A stretch of DNA of 21,053 nt from a virus: positions 1 to 21,053 of the IMG/VR virus record IMGVR_UViG_3300032046_004311; one strand, 5' to 3'. Shown piece after piece: positions 1 to 19,904 of this stretch (positions are counted from its first letter, which is position 1; each line of letters opens with the position of its first letter). The translations under genes were made by a program, and so were the position numbers. Under the pieces are notes generated by a model. The model ran no database searches. It was given only the letters and a program-made list of their open reading frames with translations, and was not told where the DNA came from.

Positions 1-174
1 GACGGCGGCGCGCATCTTTGCGTCACAGTGGGCGTCATATGCAGCGCGGTCTTCGCGCGAGAGACGGCCATACCATGCCGACTGAGCCGCCCGATTTCGG
101 GCGTCAAGCGCCTTGCTTGGCTTCTTGGAGATTTCGGTCACGGGCTTGCTGGCGAGGATTTCGGTGATGTTCAT
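1..174 (-). CDS. Small hypothetical protein behind promoter cassette A (3' end outside window)
   Basis: The first 58 codons are visible, starting with ATG at 174-172 and reading off the left edge of the window. The start is supported by a GGGAG Shine-Dalgarno about 6 nt upstream and by a strong sigma70-like promoter whose -10 box ends at 207, giving a leader of about 25 nt. The protein begins MNITEILASKPVTEISKK and is charged, probably helical, with no membrane segment. I recognise no family. It is not evidently related to the next gene (353-553), although both use the same promoter cassette. Its dedicated strong promoter with a built-in palindromic operator suggests early or regulated expression, as for many phage host-takeover or control proteins; that role is inference. 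Confidence 0.7.
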   Translation of the reverse strand, partial: MNITEILASKPVTEISKKPSKALDARNRAAQSAWYGRLSREDRAAYDAHCDAKMRAAV

Positions 175-188
175 TCTGGCTCCCTGTT

Positions 189-308
189 GTCGTGTGCCGT
201 GCGACCATTGTGAACGATACCGTTCGGCGTGTCAACCATTTCGTTCGTTTTGTTTCGCGTGGCGTTGCAGCGCCGTTGTGCGGTGTCTCGTGTGCCGGCA
301 CGCAGAAA
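189..308 (-). repeat. Promoter-cassette direct repeat, copy A
   Basis: Positions 203-308 are identical to 589-694 (106 bp). The adjoining 189-202 matches 576-588 with one single-base indel. Each copy directly precedes a small minus-strand gene and carries the promoter, a spacer palindrome and upstream palindromes. On the minus strand the repeat begins with the T-rich tail of the preceding terminator, so the unit reads terminator tail, upstream region, promoter. It is probably a duplicated regulatory module rather than a mobile element, because no ORF or terminal inverted repeat goes with it. Confidence 0.95.
207..235 (-). promoter_or_regulatory. Sigma70-like promoter A with embedded operator-like palindrome
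   Basis: On the minus strand there is a perfect -35 TTGACA (235-230), a 17-nt spacer and a -10-like CACAAT (212-207). The spacer region contains GAACGGTATCGTTC (225-212), an imperfect palindrome with 12 of 14 positions symmetric. It sits between the -35 and -10 boxes, where a bound repressor would block RNA polymerase. The predicted transcript start is near 200, about 25 nt before the ATG at 174. An A-rich stretch lies upstream of the -35 box. The promoter is read directly from consensus; the operator role is inference. Confidence 0.8.
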
Positions 309-327
309 CCCCGGGCTGACCGGGGCT
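302..327 (-). terminator. Rho-independent terminator after the 353-553 gene
   Basis: On the minus strand CCCCGG (325-320) pairs with CCGGGG (314-309) around a 5-nt loop, followed by TTTCTG (308-303). The hairpin lies 26 bp downstream of the minus-strand stop codon at 353-355 and immediately before promoter cassette A, so it would separate the two small transcription units. The U-tract is short, so termination may be partial. Confidence 0.65.
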
Positions 328-352
328 GCTGGCTGGGTTGTGGGGTGGGTGG

Positions 353-553
353 TCAGCCCTCGCTGTCGTCCATGGCACGGGCGTCGTTGACGATGTCAGC
401 GCATCGCTGGCGATTGCGCATCATCTCGGCTGTGGGGATCGACTTGTCCAATGCGCGTGCGCACGTCGTGTAGGTGTCGATGTCGTTGGCCGTGCGGGCC
501 TCGAGTTCCAACGCACGAATGGTATCGGTTGAGATGGTGTCAGCGGTCAGCAT
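353..553 (-). CDS. Small hypothetical protein behind promoter cassette B
   Basis: A 66-residue protein starting MLTADTISTDTIRALELE at the ATG 553-551, with AGGAG about 8 nt upstream. Longer in-frame extensions run through the promoter cassette and are rejected. The product is acidic and probably all-helical, ends in AMDDSEG, contains two cysteines and has no membrane segment. I recognise no family. It stands alone between promoter cassette B (576-694) and the terminator at 302-327, so it is a complete promoter-gene-terminator unit. A dedicated operator-bearing promoter for such a small protein suggests a regulatory or host-directed role, but the sequence alone does not show one. Confidence 0.75.
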   Translation of the reverse strand: MLTADTISTDTIRALELEARTANDIDTYTTCARALDKSIPTAEMMRNRQRCADIVNDARAMDDSEG

Positions 554-575
554 GTTCTGGGCTCCTGGTTGCGGC

Positions 576-694
576 GTCGTGTGCCGTGGACCATTGTGAA
601 CGATACCGTTCGGCGTGTCAACCATTTCGTTCGTTTTGTTTCGCGTGGCGTTGCAGCGCCGTTGTGCGGTGTCTCGTGTGCCGGCACGCAGAAA
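576..694 (-). repeat. Promoter-cassette direct repeat, copy B
   Basis: Second copy of the ~120-bp cassette, identical to copy A over 589-694 with one single-base indel near 588. It drives the 353-553 gene. The T-tract of the strong terminator at 691-726 is the first part of this repeat as read on the minus strand. Confidence 0.95.
593..621 (-). promoter_or_regulatory. Sigma70-like promoter B with embedded operator-like palindrome
   Basis: Minus-strand TTGACA (621-616), 17-nt spacer and CACAAT (598-593), with the same GAACGGTATCGTTC palindrome (611-598) as promoter A. The predicted transcript start is near 586, leaving a leader of about 33 nt before the ATG at 553. The leader after the promoter differs from copy A, so the core promoter has been kept while the ribosome-binding region has diverged. 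Confidence 0.8.
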
Positions 695-726
695 AACAAG
701 CGCCACCTCGCGAAAGGTGGCGCTTG
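691..726 (-). terminator. Strong terminator of the scaffold-capsid late operon
   Basis: A perfect 12-bp stem (726-715 pairing with 708-697) with a 6-nt loop, followed on the minus strand by TTTTT (696-692). It lies about 80 bp beyond the stop codon of the last gene of the minus-strand late operon (806-2542) and just before promoter cassette B. The plus-strand side has no T-tract, so it should act on leftward transcription only. Confidence 0.9.
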
Positions 727-805
727 CCGAACATGACCAAACCCTGACCCGGACCCACGACGGTCCGTCGTCGACGCTGCCACGGGGGCGCGTCGTTGTC
801 AACCG

Positions 806-2542
806 TCAGCGGGGTTGGCGGGCCTTTGCGGCTCGAGGCGGTGCCGGCGGGCCAGCACGTCCGAACGACTGCGAAGCCCAGGCGCTGTCTTTGATCCCCA
901 GGCGGCGCTTGATGACCTCCGGTGCCATGCCCTGGGCCTTTAGTTGGGCGATCCACTGCCCTCTCTGCTCGGGGGTCAGCGCAGCGAACGCGGCGCGCAT
1001 TTGGGCCCCCTGGTTCGCTGCTGCGACCTGGTTGCCGGGTCTGTCGAGGAACCCCAGCGCGTTCGGCGTGTCGGTTTTCGCCCTGCGAATGGCTTCCATG
1101 GCCTCCGGGGGCATGAGGTCCCCAGGCTGGCGCATCGGCGGCGGCGGGACCGCCGCGGGCGGGGCTTTGGTGGCGGCGGCTGCGCCCTCGGTTGCGAGCT
1201 CGTCCAGCGCTGCCGCGGTCTGCTTCGCTGCTGCGGGCGACTTGGCGACGGCGTCCCTGAACCTGAACTGCCGCAGCAGCCCACGCAGGGCGTCCTCGAC
1301 GCGCGTTGTGGGCAGCCTCAAGGCCTGAGAGATAGTGGCGAGGTCAGTTGTCCCCTTCTCGATTGCGATGCGCTGGATCTCCTGCTCCAGCGGGGACATG
1401 GCGGGGACGCTGATTCCACCAGGTAGCATCGTCTCCGTCGACGGGGCCCGCGGCGTCGGCGCCGACGGCGCAGGCACTGCCGGGGCTGGACGAGGCGCAG
1501 GGGGAGCCATCGGCGCCACGGGCGCAACCGGGGCGACAGCGACGGGGGCGGGGGCAACCGTGGCGACAGGCGCGGCCGGCGGGGCAGCCGCGGGGGCGCG
1601 CGGGGGCGCGACGGCTTTGAACTCCTCGAGGATCTTGGCGAGTTCAGCTTTCGTGAGTTGCGCGACGGGTGCCGTGGTCGCTTCCTCGACGGCGGCGACG
1701 GCGGGTGCTGCAGGAGTCCCGCCGGCGGCGCGCAGGGCCTTTTCGCCAGCGCGGGCCCCAGCGGTCAGGATGCCCGTGGGGCTGCCGGGGATGGCGGCGA
1801 CGACGTCACGGGCGACGGGGCTGGCGTCGGCTTTGGTGAGCAACCACCTGAGAGCGTCGGCGCCTTTGCGTGCTGCAGCCTGTCCGGCGTCTTTGACGTT
1901 GCCGACTTTGGCCAGTTGGCGCGCGATGACGGGCCCGACGATGGGGGCGGCTTTGGCAAGTGCTTTCTTTGTGACCTCACCCCCGACGATGCCCAGGGCG
2001 CCTTGACCGGCGCCAGCGAGCGAGAGCGGGTCAACGTCGGCGAGAGCAATGGAACCCGTCGCGGCCAGCGCGCGTTGAGCTTGGACGTTCTTCGGCGCCA
2101 GCGGCAGCGTGGAAATAATGCCGGTGACGGCGCCAGCGTCATAGGCAATTGGGCTGGCGTCATAGTCCCGCTCAACCTTGCGGCGTCGAGCGTCACGACC
2201 GACGGTGTAACCCTGCTGCAGCCGGGTGAGAGCGTCGGCGCCTTCCTCGCTGGCCGTCGTCGGGGATGCGACCTCGAGGGCTCCCGTCATCAACCCCGCC
2301 ATCGTGTCGTCAAGGCCGACGGAGCCCCATCGAGAGAACCCCGTTGCAAACCCGCGGGCAGCGTCGTTGATGGTGCGCGTTGGCGACGACCCCGACGGCG
2401 ACGGCACAACGGGGGCAACCGCTGCCGGCGCCATGGGCGGGGCGGCGTCGACGACGACGGCACCTTGGGCCTTGAACTGGTCGACCAGGGCGGCGGGGAC
2501 GCGCTTGCGCTTCCCGTTGAGTTCCATCGTCACGTCGGCCAC
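806..2542 (-). CDS. Large Ala/Pro-rich virion protein, probable internal/ejection protein
   Basis: A 578-residue protein with a GTG start at 2542-2540, supported by GAGGTGA about 6 nt upstream. Visible regions: a short basic N-terminal segment (about 1-30, LNGKRKRVPAALVDQF); small-residue and Gly-rich helical segments with amphipathic character (about 58-275); a Pro/Ala low-complexity linker (about 311-370); a winged-helix-like segment (about 384-430, containing ATISQALRLPTTRVEDAL); a second linker; and a C-terminal helical stretch with another helix-turn-helix-like pattern (about 524-556). It is last in the scaffold-capsid-adaptor operon, next to another long helical protein. That position and composition fit podovirus internal virion (DNA ejection) proteins, but no specific family is recognised. 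The DNA-binding reading of the winged-helix segment is inference. Confidence 0.6.
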   Translation of the reverse strand: MADVTMELNGKRKRVPAALVDQFKAQGAVVVDAAPPMAPAAVAPVVPSPSGSSPTRTINDAARGFATGFSRWGSVGLDDTMAGLMTGALEVASPTTASEEGADALTRLQQGYTVGRDARRRKVERDYDASPIAYDAGAVTGIISTLPLAPKNVQAQRALAATGSIALADVDPLSLAGAGQGALGIVGGEVTKKALAKAAPIVGPVIARQLAKVGNVKDAGQAAARKGADALRWLLTKADASPVARDVVAAIPGSPTGILTAGARAGEKALRAAGGTPAAPAVAAVEEATTAPVAQLTKAELAKILEEFKAVAPPRAPAAAPPAAPVATVAPAPVAVAPVAPVAPMAPPAPRPAPAVPAPSAPTPRAPSTETMLPGGISVPAMSPLEQEIQRIAIEKGTTDLATISQALRLPTTRVEDALRGLLRQFRFRDAVAKSPAAAKQTAAALDELATEGAAAATKAPPAAVPPPPMRQPGDLMPPEAMEAIRRAKTDTPNALGFLDRPGNQVAAANQGAQMRAAFAALTPEQRGQWIAQLKAQGMAPEVIKRRLGIKDSAWASQSFGRAGPPAPPRAAKARQPR

Positions 2543-17988: not shown

Positions 17989-18375
17989 ATGGTTACGACC
18001 AGGCGGGACATATTCGACACGGGGGCGAAGGAGCCAAAGCCCCCAGTCGACAAGAGCGCGGCGGACATCCCCGCCGACGCTTGGGTTCCCCGCGTCCCTG
18101 TCGTCGACGGGGTGGCCATGACGTTCGACGAGGCAGCCGACGAGATCCAGCGGCTGACCTCGACAAACCGCGCGCACTACATCCACGAATTGGAACTGCT
18201 GGCGACGGCTTGGCGCGGGGACGTGACGCTTGCATCGACGTCGGCGAAGGCAGCGATCCACCTCCTCGCGCTGGCTGCGGGCGCCCCCGAGAAGCGCAAC
18301 AAGCCGGCGCCGAAGACGTCCAGGCGCGTCGATGAGTTGCGCGCGCTGCTCACTGACGACGACGGTGACAGTTGA
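17989..18375 (+). CDS. Candidate small terminase subunit
   Basis: A 128-residue protein from the ATG 17989-17991, with GAGGGG about 10 nt upstream. It overlaps the large terminase start by 4 bp (TTGA). The N-terminal ~45 residues are Pro-rich; residues about 45-95 are helical (FDEAADEIQRLTSTNRAHYI, then ELELLATAWRG, then STSAKAAIHLLALAAG). A basic Lys/Arg/Pro tail follows, with VDELRALL near the C terminus. Small terminases are short, helical and encoded directly before the large subunit, where they bind viral DNA. Position is the main evidence, and no clear helix-turn-helix was recognised. Confidence 0.45.
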   Translation: MVTTRRDIFDTGAKEPKPPVDKSAADIPADAWVPRVPVVDGVAMTFDEAADEIQRLTSTNRAHYIHELELLATAWRGDVTLASTSAKAAIHLLALAAGAPEKRNKPAPKTSRRVDELRALLTDDDGDS

Positions 18376-19904
18376 GACGCCCGAAGTTCGACGTTGCGCG
18401 CAGAATGGCTGGCCTGCTGGCGATCCTCAGCCAGGAGAACGCCGGCGCCATCAGCCGTTGGCGCATCACTGCAGCCCAACTCGAGGTCTTACTGGCGATC
18501 CTCGACCATGAGCGCACGATCGTGCTCAAGGGGCGCCAAATGGGGGTCAGCACTGTGACCCTGCTGGCGCTGTTGGTGTTCGCCATATCGAACCCTGGTG
18601 TCCCCTGCGCCATCGTCGCCGACACTCGCGACAAAGCCCAGGGGCTACTCGCGCGGCTGGCCGGATGGTGCGAACAATTGGGTGTCGAACTGGGGGCACG
18701 CAATAAGGGGTCACTCGAGTTGGCGAACGCGGGCCCCGACGGCGTCGCCACCGTCATCGACGCCCTGTCTGCCGTGTCTCGTGCCGATGCTGGCGAGTCG
18801 CGCGTTGGTCGGTCCAAGTCCTACGGGTTCATCCATGCCAGCGAACTCGCTTTCTGGCTGTCGGACGCCGCCGTGTTTCGTGGGCTGACGTCGACGGCGC
18901 TCCCCGGGGCGCGCATCGTCGTTGAGTCGACGGCGTCGGCGGCTGACAACCTGTTTCGCACGCTGTGGAACGGCGACGGCGAGGACGGGGCTGGCGAGTG
19001 GCATCGAGTGTTCTTAGCGATCGAACGCCACCCCGTGTACCAGCGCGACCCCAGCACCATCGACGAGGCAACGTGGGAGACGCTGGCGGGCCCCAAGTAC
19101 GGGTTCACCTCGAGGGCGACAGCGGCCTGGTGGTGGCATCGGATGCGCGTCGACTTCGCTGGCGACGAAAGCGGGGCCTTGCGCGAGTTCCCTCAACTCC
19201 CCGCCCACTGCTTCTCCTTCGCCAAAGGCCGATGGATTCTCCGATTCACCGAGGCGGTCACAAACGCCGTCGGCAAGTGGGACGGCAAGGCGAAACGGTT
19301 CGACGGCTGGCACCACTACCGCGACAGGATGCCGGACGAGCCCGTCGTCATCGGCGTCGACATCGCCGCTGGCGGGGGCGGGGACTCGTCCGCCGTCGTC
19401 GTCTTGTCGCTGCTGACGGGAACCATCATTGCAACCTGGGTGAGCAACACGACGTCGCTGCCTGACCTGGTGGAGTTGGTGAAGGGTGCTGCCGTCACCT
19501 ACGTCCCCCAGACCATCGTCGTCGAATCCAACGGTGTCGGCATCGGCGTCTATGAGACGCTGCATCAGTTCTCGTCGTGGCACGTCACCGAACAACGCAG
19601 CGGGGAGGAGAAGCACTTTCGGCTGCAGCGGTTGAAACTGGCGATAGAGCAAGGCGTCGTCCCCATCGGGCCTGAGTTGGCTGTCGAGGTGAAGTCCTCG
19701 AACATTCAGCCGCCGACAGGACCCAAGGGGCGCCCATCGTATGAGGGCCTAGATGACTGCCTGAACGCGTTGTCGTTCGCGCGCGAGTTCTATCTGGGGG
19801 CGCTGCCGTCGTCATCCTCCGTCGACCCTATCGCGAGCCTTGACCACTCACGCGTGATCCACTCGTCAAAGGCACTGCGCAAGAAAACGCCAGAACGATA
19901 CTGA
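18372..19904 (+). CDS. terL: Large terminase subunit (packaging ATPase/nuclease)
   Basis: A 510-residue DNA-packaging motor. The TTG at 18372-18374 overlaps the upstream stop; an ATG at 18405 (residue 12) is an alternative. ATPase motifs: Walker A-like KGRQMGVST (53-61), Walker B FIHASE (153-158) and the coupling-type VESTASA (184-190). Nuclease motifs of the RNase H-like domain: VIGVDIAAGGGGDSS (326-340, Asp330), IVVESNGVGIGVYE (382-395, Glu385) and GLDDCLNAL (459-467, Asp461/Asp462). All expected parts are present in the right order and the length is normal. It would cut concatemeric DNA and pump it through the portal. It is the last gene of the rightward operon and converges with the RusA-type gene after only 5 bp. 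Confidence 0.92.
   Translation: MRRPKFDVARRMAGLLAILSQENAGAISRWRITAAQLEVLLAILDHERTIVLKGRQMGVSTVTLLALLVFAISNPGVPCAIVADTRDKAQGLLARLAGWCEQLGVELGARNKGSLELANAGPDGVATVIDALSAVSRADAGESRVGRSKSYGFIHASELAFWLSDAAVFRGLTSTALPGARIVVESTASAADNLFRTLWNGDGEDGAGEWHRVFLAIERHPVYQRDPSTIDEATWETLAGPKYGFTSRATAAWWWHRMRVDFAGDESGALREFPQLPAHCFSFAKGRWILRFTEAVTNAVGKWDGKAKRFDGWHHYRDRMPDEPVVIGVDIAAGGGGDSSAVVVLSLLTGTIIATWVSNTTSLPDLVELVKGAAVTYVPQTIVVESNGVGIGVYETLHQFSSWHVTEQRSGEEKHFRLQRLKLAIEQGVVPIGPELAVEVKSSNIQPPTGPKGRPSYEGLDDCLNALSFAREFYLGALPSSSSVDPIASLDHSRVIHSSKALRKKTPERY

Follow-up and report, generated by a model that had tools for sequence, protein, structure and literature searches.

A duplicated promoter-operator cassette in an environmental phage and the covariation of its spacer dyad with a phage-encoded winged-helix protein

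The DNA analyzed here, termed the window, is the 21,053-nucleotide virus record IMGVR_UViG_3300032046_004311 of IMG/VR (positions 1 to 21,053). Its left end holds two small genes on the minus strand, each behind one copy of the same non-coding cassette. The parts of this locus are as follows, in minus-strand order.

698..725, minus strand: hairpin terminator upstream of copy A, closing the structural operon, with a 12-bp stem followed by GTTTTT (RNA fold -21.2 kcal/mol, z -6.1)
576..694, minus strand: promoter-operator cassette copy A, predicted to drive gene B (repeat comparison, promoter scan)
647..660, minus strand: TGCA-centred box of copy A (GGCGCTGCAACGCC), a match to GGCnnTGCAnnGCC that aligns with the box of relatives
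616..621, minus strand: -35 box TTGACA of copy A (promoter scan)
598..611, minus strand: operator near-palindrome GAACGGTATCGTTC of copy A (dyad analysis)
593..598, minus strand: -10 box CACAAT of copy A (promoter scan)
353..553, minus strand: gene B, encoding a 66-aa cargo protein (ORF)
306..327, minus strand: GC-rich hairpin past gene B followed by TTT, a weak terminator or attenuator (fold -17.4 kcal/mol, z -3.2)
189..308, minus strand: promoter-operator cassette copy B, predicted to drive gene A (repeat comparison, promoter scan)
261..274, minus strand: TGCA-centred box of copy B (GGCnnTGCAnnGCC match)
230..235, minus strand: -35 box TTGACA of copy B (promoter scan)
212..225, minus strand: operator near-palindrome GAACGGTATCGTTC of copy B (dyad analysis)
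207..212, minus strand: -10 box CACAAT of copy B (promoter scan)
1..174, minus strand: first 58 codons of gene A (ORF; the full 110 aa are encoded at L125:527-859)

The terminator at 698..725 was not listed by a stricter pattern scan. Since the T tracts at the hairpins behind genes B and A are weak, read-through past both may be possible.

The original prediction had described two copies sharing 106 identical bases, each with TTGACA, a 17-nt spacer and CACAAT on the minus strand, and this description was borne out. Compared within the window, 203-308 and 589-694 are the same over 106 bp, and the longer match of 189-308 to 576-694 contains a single 1-base gap. The boxes lie at 621-616 and 598-593 in copy A (621-593 overall) and at 235-230 and 212-207 in copy B (235-207), each pair matching 10 of 12 consensus bases with a spacing inside the 16-18 nt range, as expected of a sigma70-type promoter. 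The two cassettes are the only promoter-like matches in window 1-1000 (shuffled sequences: mean 0.1, sd 0.4), and GGCnnTGCAnnGCC occurs in the window solely at positions 261 and 647. The palindrome noted between the boxes is present at 598-611 and 212-225 as a near-palindrome, with 12 of its 14 bases symmetric. The products of genes B (66 aa) and A (110 aa, completed in L125) are non-homologous, as had been proposed.

The same two-copy layout recurs in three other records, which come from other metagenomes, and the presence of both copies in these three assemblies rules out the assembly artefact that had been raised as an objection. Up to the -10 box, four near-identical records with both copies differ at one base, which reads CGCC in G000 and G002 and CGCT in G001 and G003, and the two copies agree within each record; past the -10 box, their leaders vary by small gaps. 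The operator has this base at its outer margin, where the T adds one pair to the dyad, and the within-record agreement, which concerns this single site, would fit gene conversion or repeated duplication. More generally, the 106-bp identity appears to speak for recent duplication or homogenisation, with the boxes and operator as the likely functional constraint.

Overlaps between records imply a whole genome of about 28.9 kb. The ends of G001 match window 706-1 (98.2%) and 21053-11729 (99.9%), with 7.8 kb between them that hold the remainder of gene A, LPDF (a conserved gene of 66-69 aa), g182, a winged-HTH gene, a YqaJ-type exonuclease, a PHROG 11517 protein and a D5-type primase. Both cassettes sit before the replication operon, the position expected of early promoters. 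G001 runs from window base 1 round to 21053 without a third cassette in those 7.8 kb, so that the suggested array beyond the left end of the window fell away. No named relative was found among sequenced phages and plasmids by DNA, portal, capsid protein or gene A; terminase and primase gave the only matches, and these were weak. For the gene B product there were zero Pfam matches and a single weak PHROG match (E 0.038), and its relatives are confined to near-identical contigs. Nor did we find the integrase expected of a temperate phage: PF00589 was absent from 25 records and the resolvase family PF00239 from 10, some of the records being partial. Cro/CI-type HTH_3 domains, absent from the window group, were detected solely in the G004 group.

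Scanning the viral collection by pattern uncovered a cassette family on about 30 environmental contigs, where a small ORF nearly always follows the cassette. The family order is terminator, box GGCnnTGCAnnGCC, A-rich stretch, TTGACA-17-CAYART and small gene. The TGCA-centred box, which precedes the -35 box by about 25 bp, is kept in nearly all members, and in the window it is restricted to the cassettes (261-274 and 647-660). Close relatives, with major capsid proteins 88-92% identical, mostly carry one cassette at the same site between structural genes and early operon, followed by a first gene that differs from one relative to another. That the cassette is an early promoter conserved within a phage group is, as a prediction, well supported. 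Multi-copy units recur in G004, G017 and G022. G004 carries four tandem units; every unit has a terminator of its own, and no two have the same small gene. The last contains a gene A homologue 83% identical to that of the window, and the other three are 71-86% identical to this last unit. The structural genes of G004 are for the most part unrelated to those of the window phage, yet it has four units including gene A; the cassette therefore travels, or is retained, together with cargo genes in different phage lineages. Because its four copies are only 71-86% alike, perfect identity is apparently unnecessary for function, which refines the proposal that identity implied duplication or selection.

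A specific cassette pattern gave zero matches in 84,980 genomes. A looser one matched 19 of these 84,980, varied and mostly Firmicutes, which were deemed chance hits by their taxonomy rather than by individual inspection, and L151, L167 and L168 were judged by eye to be chance pattern matches. Scanning for the exact 14-bp palindrome returned mostly chance matches and one lead, L054.

Several variants of the locus were observed. Phages whose operators differ and whose structural genes are unrelated have the TGCA-centred box in common. In L156:11164-13306, from the same phage, about 1.9 kb with an HTH gene and an ImmA/IrrE-like gene (assigned by eye) lie directly behind copy A, and window 877-749 recurs after this insert of about 1.9 kb, which may mark a chimeric contig or a third inserted unit. 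On a contig whose YqaJ is identical to that of the window phage, L208:3015-3104 is a weak cassette of the G004 type, accompanied by a small gene; its position farther down the early region may mark a second insertion site. Similar promoters on the opposite strand occur in related phages (L142:9494-9564, L152:10650-10721, L153:8929-9000 and L155:1795-1725), lacking the TGCA box and retaining the A-rich stretch and leader. Inverted repeats of the form GGGCTC...GAGCC lie in the leaders past the cassette in L143, L149 and L158 and could base-pair with the ribosome-binding region.

Within the promoter, close relatives differ above all in the 17-nt spacer, which is hypervariable. Ten distinct spacers place the dyad axis at one base step; 62 of their 80 pairs (0.78) are symmetric, where the expected maxima are 0.35-0.44 (p 0.0005 under both sequence shuffling and column permutation). 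Taken alone, the window operator is marginally palindromic (p 0.065). Half-sites differ by type: TGTCGCAG in clade A, TGCACC in B and C, GAGCGAT in D and GAACGAT in the window. The relatives tested have one operator site per genome, apart from one with an extra 3-mismatch site; the window phage has two, and our search for the 14-bp palindrome added no further exact site. The G004 group has a weaker dyad, six bases closer to the -35 box (column-permutation p 0.043), and no clear operator was seen in clade F (L213, L219). The Gram-positive LexA (SOS) box, GAAC-N4-GTTC, was rejected as an identity for the window operator, which reads GAAC-N6-GTTC.

The search for a phage HTH regulator, also proposed at the outset, led to a candidate in the early operon that covaries with the operator: a winged-helix (HTH_17/BldC-like) gene of about 80 residues, selected among five early genes after inspecting them. 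In the window phage it lies outside the window, some 1.5-2 kb downstream, and was read from near-identical records (L125:1950-2549). Modelled with AlphaFold (pLDDT 75.6), the protein folds as a winged helix; BldC is the best match to this fold (E 0.004), and Nu1 and Xis are among the other matches. At L125:1950-2549 the HTH frame continues into what G011 and L213 have as a separate gene, and at L217:4770-5666 the winged-HTH gene of G009 is duplicated in tandem, its first copy truncated.

In Mantel tests on 10 to 17 taxa, which represent about five operator types and few independent clades, spacer distance tracks HTH distance with r 0.90 (17 taxa) and 0.85 within clades A-C. Controlling for LPDF and g182 leaves a partial r of 0.82-0.86 (p 0.0001 at 0.84). 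Such joint divergence is what would be expected of an HTH protein paired with operators in early promoters, and the covariation points to this protein as the regulator. An unlikely alternative is that the dyad is bound by a host regulator or another phage protein and that the covariation records shared ancestry and block co-transfer. The small number of independent clades speaks for such an explanation, as does the upstream promoter DNA (124 bp), which also tracks HTH across all 13 taxa (r 0.76-0.84); the spacer signal nevertheless persists when this DNA is controlled for (partial r 0.74-0.81). Against co-transfer, LPDF and g182, located between operator and HTH gene, lose all correlation once HTH is controlled for, and within clades A-C the adjacent promoter DNA, its bases nearly constant, does not follow HTH (26 bp upstream, r 0.008; 20 bp downstream, r 0.044). 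Host sites, moreover, would not be expected to vary so much among such close phages. L226 and L227 combine the HTH gene and operator of clade A with an intervening LPDF gene of clade C; as read from these sequences, recombinants break the link of HTH with neighbouring genes and not its link with the operator.

We therefore consider it probable that a sigma70-type early promoter was duplicated together with a cargo gene, and that both copies are controlled by a coevolving HTH protein that the phage itself encodes and that most likely acts as a repressor. Host sigma70-type polymerase would fire both copies on phage entry, copy A transcribing gene B and copy B gene A, with the early replication operon downstream. 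The HTH protein made from this operon is predicted to bind both spacer dyads and, once bound, would silence the two copies when early expression is over; between relatives, operator and protein would change specificity jointly. The repeat, its layout and conservation, the fixed dyad axis and the covariation are observed, whereas binding, the timing of regulation and a repressing rather than activating role are inferred. We favour repression since 17 nt is already an optimal spacing and any protein bound there would occupy the gap between the boxes. MerR-type activated promoters have their boxes 19-20 nt apart and the regulator site in this gap, and they were set aside as a model given the 17-nt spacer of the window, although its operator also lies in the spacer. 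Of the original interpretation, the duplicated promoter-operator, the two unrelated genes and a probable co-regulation by one HTH protein hold, and the leftward array does not.

That a strong promoter was simply duplicated recently, its identity reflecting age only and carrying no regulatory meaning, seems improbable. The 106 identical bp, over which the copies within a genome show no separating mutation, are what such an event would leave, but it accounts neither for the fixed dyad axis and the covariation across relatives nor for the recurrent multi-copy units in G004, G017 and G022. Very improbable is that the HTH protein is a Nu1-like small terminase subunit and the dyad a packaging site: the best match of the G011 protein is the PHROG 57 small terminase (E 2.6e-7) and the lambda Nu1 domain is among the fold matches, yet the gene lies in the early operon, away from the large terminase (window 18372-19904), the sites occupy a fixed place within promoter spacers, and PHROG 66 (excisionase/regulator) scores higher for the clade A and C proteins.

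A wider proposal seems somewhat less likely than not: apparently non-lysogenic phages may possess an immunity-like specificity, in which a hypervariable operator, set in an early promoter that is otherwise conserved, coevolves with a BldC-like protein, so that a phage might shut down another of its own type during co-infection, with promoter-gene-terminator units spreading between mostly unrelated phages. The close relatives constitute a natural series of matched operator/regulator pairs in an otherwise nearly constant promoter, so that changes of DNA recognition in a BldC/MerR-like winged helix can be tested directly. They also raise the question of why phages without detectable integrase would diversify early-promoter specificity, and suggest that small early genes may be gained as promoter-gene-terminator units.

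A literature search found no matching repeated early-promoter system, and several known systems share individual features with the cassette. In Cluster K mycobacteriophages, SAS is a 13-bp motif, GGGATAGGAGCCC, at translation starts, thought to act in translation initiation (PMC3203893). SAS/ESAS resemble the window repeat in lying just upstream of several genes, and ESAS has inverted repeats; the window repeat, in contrast, is a full sigma70-type promoter with a spacer operator, and direct reading of the sequence found GGGATAGGAGCCC absent before the start codons of genes A and B, in agreement with the anticipated difference in layout. Kayvirus-type virulent phages likewise have many host-type sigma70 early promoters and units that include host-takeover genes (PMC7698491); the available part of that account describes no covarying operator, whereas the cassette of the window group is long and conserved and includes a TGCA box on its upstream side. 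Cluster A mycobacteriophages offer a phage repressor acting on early promoters, with repressors and sites that co-diverge (PMC6550527, PMC9283540), but theirs are temperate phages with asymmetric, numerous sites mostly outside promoters, while the window group, in which no integrase was found, has a dyad at essentially one site per promoter. The 17-bp dyad repeats of Cluster O (PMC4351075) are also repeated dyads of unproven function in phage genomes; they number more than 30 copies, mostly off promoters, whereas the dyad of the window group lies at promoters only.
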